Below, one piece after another: positions 42,515-45,463 of a stretch of DNA of 45,965 nucleotides (positions are counted from its first letter, which is position 1; every line of letters begins with the position of its first letter). Made by a program: the position numbers and the translations under genes. Below the pieces are notes generated by a model that saw nothing but the letters and a program-made list of their open reading frames with translations, was not told the DNA's origin and searched no databases. The stretch comes from Reyranella sp. (GTDB lineage: Bacteria; Pseudomonadota; Alphaproteobacteria; Reyranellales; Reyranellaceae). The DNA lies in the NCBI GenBank assembly GCA_019745575.1, contig JAIETA010000141.1, positions 1-45,965 on the forward strand. Reading direction: 5' to 3'.

Positions 42515-42626
42515 CCTCATCCTGAGGAGCGCCGCGAAGCGGCGCGTCTCGAAGGATGGGCAACAGACGCGGTGCGCGGTCCCACCCTTCGAGACGCGGT
42601 CCTGCGGACCGCTCCTCAGGGTGAGG
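42515..42626. repeat. Palindromic REP-like element between cytochrome-like and crcB genes
   Basis: CCTCATCCTGAGGAGC (42515-42530) is mirrored by GCTCCTCAGGGTGAGG (42611-42626), and GCGTCTCGAAGGATGGG (42544-42560) by CCCACCCTTCGAGACGC (42581-42597). This two-arm, 112-bp design is recognisable from many Rhizobiales and Rhodospirillales genomes. A different sequence family from the 36494 and 41053 elements. Confidence 0.85.
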
Positions 42627-43094: not shown

Positions 43095-44210
43095 ATGACG
43101 TCGAAGGCGTTCGATGTCGTCGTTCTGGGTGCCGGCGCCGCCGGCCTGATGTGCGCGATCCGCGCCGGCCAGCGGGGGCGGCGCGTGCTGCTGCTGGAGC
43201 ATGCCGAGAAGGTCGGCAAGAAGATCCTGATCTCGGGCGGCGGGCGCTGCAATTTCACCAATCTCGGCGCGCGGCCCGAGGCGTTCCTGTCGGACAACCC
43301 GCATTTCGCCAAGTCGGCGCTGGCCCGCTTCACGCAGCACGACTTCATCGCCCTGGTCGAGAAGCACGGCATCGCCTGGCACGAGAAGACGCTGGGCCAG
43401 CTCTTCTGCGACGGCTCGGCGCGCCAGATCGTGGCCATGCTGCTGGCCGAGTGCGCGGCCGCGAGCGTCGATGTGCGCGTGGCGCACCGGATCGCCGGCA
43501 TCGAGAAGCCCGACCGCTTCACGGTGCATACCGATCAGGGCGACTTCGACGCCGCCGCCGTCGTGCTGGCGACCGGCGGGCTTTCCATTCCCAAGATGGG
43601 CGCCACCGGCTTCGCGCACGACATGGCGCGCCGCTTCGGCCTCGGGATCGTCGGGACGCGGCCGGGCCTCGTGCCCTTCACCGCGCATGTGCCGGACATC
43701 GCCGGCGTGTCGCTCGAGGTCGAGGCGAGCGTGGGCCGCACGCGCTTTCGCGAGGCGATGCTGTTCACCCATCGCGGCCTCTCGGGGCCGGCGATCCTGC
43801 AGATCTCGTCCTACTGGCACCCCGGCCAGGAGATCGCGATCGACCTGCTGCCCGATATTGCGGACGCCGTAAAATTCCTGAAGCGGCGCCGGCATGCGCG
43901 GCCCAAGGCGGAGCCGCGCACCCTCCTGGCCGAACTGCTGCCGCAGCGGCTGGCGGAGGTGTTGGCCTCGACCGAGCCCGCGACGCTCAAGGACTGGCGG
44001 GTGCGGCCGACCGGCACCGAAGGTTACGCCAAGGCCGAGGTCACCGTGGGCGGCATCGACACCGCCGAACTTTCCTCGAAGACGATGGAGGCCAGGAAGG
44101 TACCCGGCCTCTACGCCATCGGCGAGGCGGTCGACGTCACCGGCTGGCTGGGCGGCTACAATTTCCAGTGGGCGTGGTCGAGCGGCTGGGTGGCGGGGGA
44201 GGCGGTTTAG
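43095..44210 (+). CDS. YhiN/HI0933-type FAD-dependent oxidoreductase
   Basis: 371 residues from ATG 43095 (GGAG upstream). The FAD-binding VVVLGAGAAGLMCAIRAGQRGRRVLLLEHAEKVGKKILISGGGRCNFTN (GxGxxG plus GGGRCNFTN) is the signature of the HI0933/YhiN group. GIDTAELSSKTMEARKVPGLYAIGEAVDVTGWLGGYNFQWAWSSGWVAG at the end closes the family. The enzyme's substrate is unknown. Starts 11 nt after the crcB stop. Confidence 0.93.
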   Translation: MTSKAFDVVVLGAGAAGLMCAIRAGQRGRRVLLLEHAEKVGKKILISGGGRCNFTNLGARPEAFLSDNPHFAKSALARFTQHDFIALVEKHGIAWHEKTLGQLFCDGSARQIVAMLLAECAAASVDVRVAHRIAGIEKPDRFTVHTDQGDFDAAAVVLATGGLSIPKMGATGFAHDMARRFGLGIVGTRPGLVPFTAHVPDIAGVSLEVEASVGRTRFREAMLFTHRGLSGPAILQISSYWHPGQEIAIDLLPDIADAVKFLKRRRHARPKAEPRTLLAELLPQRLAEVLASTEPATLKDWRVRPTGTEGYAKAEVTVGGIDTAELSSKTMEARKVPGLYAIGEAVDVTGWLGGYNFQWAWSSGWVAGEAV

Positions 44211-44749
44211 GCTGCTTCGCCAACGCGTGGCGTCGTGCCGGCAGCCCTGATCGTCCGCGTTCACGCGATTGTGATGAGCAGATTCAGCAGGGTATGCTAT
44301 GATTTTTCTATAAGTTGAGGTGTGGACCGCCTCGGCCTTTTTCCTTTCCGGCACGACCGCCCGCGGCACGCCCGCGGGTCCGGCCTTGAGCCTTGGTGCA
44401 GCCGCCGCGGGTCCTGACCCGTGGTTTATCCTGAGGCCGAAGGCCGAAGGAACAGTCCCAAAAACAACCCCGTCTCAACCGTGCGCCGAATAACGACGCC
44501 GGAACAGACACTTAACGACGCCCTGGGCACAGGGCGCGAAGGGGCCCGTACGACCGAAGAACAAGCGAGATGCGTAAAAGCCCGTCAAACAAGGCTTATC
44601 CCGAAGCGGGGCACAACCCGGGGCCCAACACTCCCACGTTTCAGGTGGGCCCGGGGAGCGGGCGAAAAGCCTGTCGTTATTGGCTTTCTGGCGTGCGGAG
44701 AGCTGACATTCGGCCTGTGGATTTGTGCCCCTGTGGCACGGCGATCCGC
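44211..44749. other. About 540 bp without a convincing gene
   Basis: Between the converging YhiN-type and LivF genes. It contains the AT-rich stretch GGTATGCTATGATTTTTCT near 44291, a hairpin GAGGTG/CGCCTC (44317-44333) followed by GGCCTTTTT that could terminate the upstream gene, and a purine- and A-rich region from about 44440 to 44600, unlike coding neighbours. Both strands have open frames, but none has a start context, codon usage or similarity I recognise. An unidentified RNA gene or decayed sequence is possible. Confidence 0.5.
44317..44344 (+). terminator. Weak candidate terminator after YhiN-type gene
   Basis: GAGGTG (44317-44322) can pair with CGCCTC (44328-44333, one G-U pair), 5-nt loop, then GGCCTTTTTCC. 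The stem is short and the hairpin begins more than 100 nt past the stop, so this call is weak. Confidence 0.3.

Positions 44750-45459
<710 letters not shown>

Positions 45460-45463
<4 letters not shown>

Follow-up and report, generated by a model that had tools for sequence, protein, structure and literature searches.

A 539 bp intergenic gap in Reyranella sp. and the multicopy structured RNA family to which it probably belongs

What lies in the long gap between two protein-coding genes at positions 44211-44749 of the window, the whole stretch of 45,965 nt of Reyranella sp. DNA analysed here? An earlier note, made from the letters alone, had called the gap noncoding and had guessed at a structured RNA. 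The gap proved to be real: 539 bp separate the stop codons of the two neighbouring CDSs, namely an HI0933-like FAD flavoprotein of family TIGR00275 on the left (43095-44210, + strand; Pfam PF03486, E 1.9e-91; TIGR00275, E 1.3e-116) and a livF-like ABC transporter ATPase on the right (44750-45463, - strand), the latter convergent with the RNA described here.

Copies of the gap sequence and their distribution

When the gap was used as a blastn query on its own genome (4.9 Mb, 364 contigs, 91% complete), 37 matches were found, one of them the query itself. About 17 of the 37 were near full length, and the other members of those 17 were 72-87% identical. The stretches around 27 of the 37 places were taken for an alignment, which shows one layout in the copies: a start that looks like a promoter, then a 5′ module, a middle that varies and a 3′ module. 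Covariance models built separately for the 3′ module (R1) and the 5′ module (R2) found 32 and 36 copies, respectively, in the own genome. That the gap is one of some 32-36 copies could not be seen by a reader with the sequence alone.

R1 matched 16 of 65 Reyranella genomes, with 4-43 copies each (43 in G032), and had 0 matches in the other 49. R2 matched the same 16 carriers, again with 43 copies in G032. Most of these genomes are drafts (MAGs, where a name is given), one per species; the copy numbers are lower bounds. At 114 of the 125 loci with a 3′ module the 5′ module was found on the same strand, and most of the others were cut by the end of a sequence. R2 also gave a single weak match (E 8.9e-5) in G069, an otherwise RNA-free relative, which could be a remnant or chance.

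Outside the genus, R2 had 0 matches in 11 other genomes of the order. R1 matched the own genome only among 289 genomes of the class, a search with strict filters and few candidates per genome that could miss weak relatives. The exact 3′-module pattern matched 75 stretches in the GTDB-220 species collection, labelled as Reyranella MAGs, alphaproteobacterial MAGs and some Rhizobium sp. Q54; none was found in viral contigs, and plasmid and phage collections (distant blastn) gave 0 matches. When the flavoprotein was used as query, its best-scoring relatives came nearly all from RNA carriers, as would be expected had one sub-clade acquired the RNA once; several RNA-free species have the flavoprotein gene and livF side by side with no RNA between them. 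No published description of the family was found in the literature searched.

Structure, strand and promoter

The earlier note had proposed a search of Rfam and a search for covariation. Neither the window nor 13 loci with copies had a match to Rfam 15 that reached the gathering score, and relaxed scans of three copies gave chance matches only (best E 1.7). The covariation search found covariation beyond that of shuffles in both modules. Among 94 distinct copies, the 3′-module helices H1-H3 had changes on both sides in 14 of 22 pairs, with 60 double-change cells versus 21.5 in shuffles; 88% of the cells pair, falling to 29-59% when the partners are slid. In 91 distinct copies of the 5′ module, both sides changed in 11 of 29 pairs (73 cells versus 12.8 in shuffles) and 94% of the cells were paired, a pairing that sliding of the partners destroys. 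These alignments and a further one hold 94, 91 and 54 of the 102 distinct copies, those dropped being near the ends of stretches, short in the core or near-identical.

Across the family helices there were 439 G.U cells versus 94 A.C cells, so the transcribed strand is the + strand. The + strand of the gap also folds better than 100 of 100 dinucleotide shuffles (z -3.31), whereas for the - strand 13 of 100 shuffles were equally good (z -1.26). Compensatory changes, G.U pairs and fold energy together place the RNA on the + strand. Each + frame is stopped in 90-95 of the 102 cores, and no conserved reading frame was found over them; a coding reading was therefore rejected. The guess of a structured RNA is thus supported by covariation, by strand-specific G.U pairs, by the lack of a conserved open frame and by a promoter whose position keeps step with the start of the RNA. 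The gap sequence is conserved, a point on which the earlier note had let its guess partly depend. With covariation beyond shuffles, a promoter of its own and no conserved frame, the family is very probably a structured noncoding RNA.

In every copy a sigma-70-like promoter stands at a constant position, and the RNA itself consists of a 5′ module (P1-P5), a middle that belongs to type A or type B, and a 3′ module with H1-H3 and a closing tail helix. The RNA of the window copy would run for about 430 nt, from 44312 to 44740 (+ strand, as are all parts below), its start placed by promoter and alignment and its end by the tail helix. Helix P1 (44313-44337) carries GGACCG in its loop; it has 9 pairs in the family, the outermost being an A-C mismatch in the window copy. 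TTTTT follows at 44338-44342, and P1 with this T run resembles an intrinsic terminator or attenuator. The next domain (44350-44403) is closed by GGC/GCC and ACC/GGT and contains hairpin P3 (44360-44366 with 44372-44378) and the small hairpin P4. In 8 of 91 copies the tip of P3 bears an additional hairpin, a change that a real helix would be expected to tolerate; its sequence, CTCTGGAGTCCGCAAGAGG, is nearly invariant in L034, L059, L076, L082, L087, L105, L113 and L126. Hairpin P5 (44405-44424, CCGCGGG-TCCTGA-CCCGTGG) covaries more than any other helix of the 5′ module: both sides changed in 5 of its 7 pairs, 97.2% of its cells are paired, and GC, CG, AU and UA pairs occur at single positions or across them.

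A 27-nt insertion at 44425-44451, common to a few other own-genome copies in the alignment, separates P5 from the middle. By eye it resembles one arm of a dispersed palindromic repeat, a separate element with CATCCTGAGGAG...GAAGGATG and its mirror at 42515-42626, which has 50 matches in the own genome with both strands counted. The middle of the window copy (44452-44606) is of type A, with hairpins around GCCGAATAACGACG and GCCCTGGGCACAGGGCGC that were seen on other type A copies. The purine-rich middle of the earlier note was recovered at 44425-44600 (A+G 0.58, A 0.31). The 102 distinct copies comprise 82 of type A, 19 of type B and one odd one. Because the two types do not align, RNAalifold over all 102 cores worked poorly, but it worked per type. 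The type A consensus has 104 pairs, with changes on both sides in 18, and was computed from the 46 of 82 copies whose middles passed a filter for start position and length (19 of 19 for type B); the window copy is not among them, its 27-nt insertion having failed the filter.

The 3′ module is closed by a helix whose 5′ strand, GGGGCACAA (44608-44616), is complementary at 9 of 9 positions to the tail strand TTGTGCCCC (44723-44731); the 3′ end of the RNA probably lies just beyond the latter. Within it are helix H1 (44621-44627 with 44646-44652), with a conserved TTTCAGG inside, helix H2 (44659-44673, CGGGC-GAAAA-GCCTG) and helix H3 (44680-44706, TTGGCTTTCT-GGCGTGC-GGAGAGCTGA), with both-side changes in 6 of 10 pairs. 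The hairpin CCCAC-GTTTCAG-GTGGG of the earlier note is present, only at 44633-44649, two bases to the left of the 44635-44651 given there. The assignment of H1 is ambiguous, owing to two GGGCNCAAC repeats that are both complementary to GTGGGCCC and could each form it. The first repeat in the window copy, GGGGCACAA, matches the tail TTGTGCCCC exactly, so the likely pairing is of the first repeat with the tail and of the second with GTGGGCCC. Copies L015, L021, L022, L024 and L028 form a sub-lineage that is a natural double mutant of H1: GGGCCC has become GGAC-type on one side and GTGGGCCC GTGTCC-type on the other (GGAC/GTCC type).

Two possible tertiary contacts were considered, and neither gained support. 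A pseudoknot of AATAACG (44489-44495) with CGTTATT (44675-44681), first hinted at by an exact 9-nt complementarity, scored 0.813 versus 0.822 in shuffled rows over the 46 type A copies. A loop-loop pair of the P5 loop UCCUGA with UUUCAGG was judged by eye alone; in several copies one partner has changed and the other has not.

The AT-rich, promoter-like part that the earlier note had pointed to lies at 44258-44309, with a GC content of 0.44 versus 0.63 for the whole gap. Its promoter character is visible only in the family alignment; a generic promoter scan had no match at its threshold. A -35/-10 hexamer score of at least 8 was reached by 53 of 91 copies versus 53 of 1820 shuffles, counts that come from homologous and hence not independent copies. 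In 44 of these 53 the -10 box stops 6 nt short of the RNA start. A promoter is thus conserved beside a structure that is also conserved, as in a gene rather than an untranscribed repeat. The window copy has a -10-like TATGAT (44298-44303) preceded by TG at 44295-44296 (extended -10), and the palindrome TTCACGCGATTGTGA upstream (44260-44274), a possible activator site, whose strict pattern is found upstream of 4 of 91 copies; it has no good -35 box. Only a few other copies have this form, so the copies differ in promoter type. Upstream palindromes are of two kinds, TTCACGCNNWTGTGA in 4 of 91 copies and a GCATGGC..ATGC-like one in 8 of 91, which suggests different regulators for different copies.

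The T run after P1 has at least 5 T in 9 bases in 82 of 90 copies, and in a terminator scan P1 with the T run was the sole terminator-like site of the region; from these two results comes the idea of an attenuator.

Genomic context and evolution of the copies

The neighbours of the RNA are ordinary metabolic and transport genes. With a crude gene caller, which made obvious shadow-frame errors in the window, the flanking genes were convergent at 50 of 86 RNA-bearing gaps, compared with 44 of 270 other pairs of adjacent genes; in 76 of the 86 the gene on the right faced the RNA.

Many sites are common to several species. With same-site assignment by blastn of the flanks, 50 cross-genome pairs matched in both flanks and 52 in one (117 copies, 12 genomes). 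Nevertheless, the nearest neighbour of 63 of the 117 copies lay within the own genome (permuted mean 16.9, maximum 33), and in only 11 of 86 copies was it the same-site relative. Only 20 of 85 copies had a same-site relative more similar than their best paralogue in the own genome, a count biased, as best-match counts are, towards the own genome, from which more copies were included; the permutation and the tree are free of that bias. On the tree, genome labels took 51 changes versus 76 when shuffled, and site labels 40 versus 45.3. Residual orthology was also seen: of 165 directed pairs, 31 had the same-site relative as the best match within its genome (9.8 expected). Mean identity of the 5′ module differed little, at 71.5 within a genome, 72.3 at the same site and 70.8 otherwise.

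Since the copies often occupy shared sites and yet resemble those of their own genome, they evolve in concert. At one site, represented by G000_L041 (type A) and G023_L188 (type B), the flanking genes match up to their stop codons and the RNAs are 49% identical. The best matches of the tail were 27 at the same site versus 38 in the own genome, whereas those of the 5′ module were 9 and 60. Some paralogues that are otherwise close have different promoters or tails. From this pattern we infer that gene conversion acts on the body of the RNA while the loci stay in place.

Comparison with known RNAs and competing explanations

The copies examined matched no Rfam 15 family, and several known RNAs were rejected individually. 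The own genome has a separate single 6S RNA gene (RF00013, at G000:C266), as have 14 of the 16 carriers in all. ARAGORN found 0 tRNA or tmRNA genes in the window. A Y RNA was rejected because 4 of 65 genomes encode the Ro60/TROVE protein and none of the 16 carriers is among them, and a group II intron or retron because RVT_1 is present in only 4 of 16 carriers, whose genomes are incomplete. The RNA could nevertheless be the guide or template of a protein system such as an omega RNA, retron, group II intron or Y RNA, with a single partner gene elsewhere. Its size, own promoter and modular build would suit this, and HEARO-type RNAs are known as stand-alone copies, in some genomes many of them. 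In PMC12286853 one HEARO RNA has a similar length, 343 nt. Against such a role stand the absent Rfam matches, the weak scans of three copies (E at least 1.7), the missing TROVE protein and the lack of linkage to RVT_1 and the Y1 transposase; among the 136 families seen in 96 neighbours, the commonest 25 include no HNH/RuvC nuclease, as would be sought for HEARO or omega RNA. We regard this role as very improbable. Equally improbable is a cis-acting terminator or insulator between convergent genes, of which the RNA would be a by-product. The frequent convergent setting, the nearness of the tail to the stop of the right-hand gene and the tail's being the part that tracks the site most all agree with it, but about 30 nt suffice for a terminator as against 430, 36 of 86 copies lie elsewhere than between convergent genes, and the promoter, the 5′ module and the covarying helices far from the tail are left unexplained.

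The main rival is a selfish dispersed repeat, that is, a non-autonomous mobile element with a promoter and a folded RNA, spread by a helper enzyme, in which the structure would serve mobility and not the host. Dozens of copies are also what is expected of such an element, and many copies per genome are taken as a sign of one in PMC11109978. Similarity by genome, the excess in convergent gaps, where insertions harm least, and the replacement of the whole unit at one site (type A in G000_L041, type B in G023_L188) point the same way. The mobile or repeat candidates of PMC11109978 are likewise structured motifs with covariation and dozens of intergenic copies; unlike them, the Reyranella RNA is multi-domain and about 430 nt long with a promoter in register, the next gene has a consistent orientation, sites are shared across species, and no linked transposase was seen. 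No mobile-element family, transposase or integrase is among the 25 commonest neighbour families. RVT_1 occurs in 4 of 16 carriers versus 17 of 49 non-carriers, and the Y1 transposase in 4 of 16 versus 29 of 49. A MITE or IS-derived repeat is not supported either, as among 110 copies neither terminal inverted repeats (matches of at least 9 nt in 8, 0.073, versus 0.052 for mispaired ends) nor target-site duplications (direct repeats of at least 8 nt in 16, 0.145, versus 0.101) were in marked excess. Present mobility of the family is therefore unsupported by the data, although its origin may have been mobile; on the whole we think a selfish repeat unlikely.

The explanation that we favour, and consider probable, is that the gap is one gene of a multicopy family of structured RNAs, each about 430 nt long and found in a single sub-clade of Reyranella, which acts in trans and whose dose is provided by homogenised copies. 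Many homogenised, promoter-bearing genes with no link to a guide protein argue for an abundant trans-acting structural RNA. The family was not catalogued before, and its host, a freshwater bacterium, probably needs large amounts of the RNA. RNA polymerase would transcribe every copy, and gene conversion between dispersed loci would keep the copies alike, as with rRNA genes. The RNA would act in trans, with gene number setting a high dose, and would scaffold or titrate an abundant partner, either a protein or the RNA's own copies, rather than regulate its neighbours; no partner gene was found in this analysis. The variable middle may tune the RNA, P1 and its T run may act as an attenuator yielding short and full transcript forms, and the tail could be a terminator shared with the convergent neighbour.

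To our knowledge, large structured bacterial RNAs beyond the core set are few, and those that are understood do unexpected things. Cuckoo RNAs of alphaproteobacteria are sibling small RNAs from paralogous genes with their own promoters; in comparison, the Reyranella RNA is much longer, has far more copies and a complex fold, and evolves in concert at shared sites. The model of concerted evolution is the rRNA operon, with dispersed RNA genes alike within a genome, whereas the closest own-genome pair of the present family is just 88.8% identical and the family occurs in one sub-clade only. It is nonetheless a bacterial case for concerted evolution of dispersed non-ribosomal genes, and up to ~43 genes per genome, often at fixed sites and with copies alike, imply that dose is under strong selection or else that a repeat has become very domesticated.

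Like OLE, ROOL and GOLLD (PMC12286853), the RNA is large and folded and has no known partner; unlike them, it has many chromosomal genes per genome and no Rfam match, and its exact pattern is absent from the viral contigs searched. In PMC12286853, GGCC-type palindromes bridge the chains of OLE, and the GGGCCC palindromic stretches of the Reyranella RNA resemble that palindrome. By this analogy, self-assembly of the RNA through its repeated self-complementary GGGCCC segments is thinkable. A bolder and distinctly doubtful proposal is that of a large structural RNA, neither translation machinery nor guide, which dozens of rRNA-like homogenised genes would produce and which would form abundant RNA-only or RNA-rich particles, driven by GGGCCC and mixing A and B subunits.

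The left neighbour offered a separate observation. Additional pieces of its 3′ end were found downstream of the full flavoprotein gene in L207 (1725-1796) and L212 (7258-7332 and 9706-9756), and at a contig end in L187 (4192-4386). Single metabolic genes lie between the fragments, of mandelate-racemase type in L207 and for a CoA-transferase and an enoyl-CoA hydratase in L212. No integrase was seen among the ORFs scanned at these sites, which resemble a hotspot where insertion leaves a second copy of the 3′ end of the gene.
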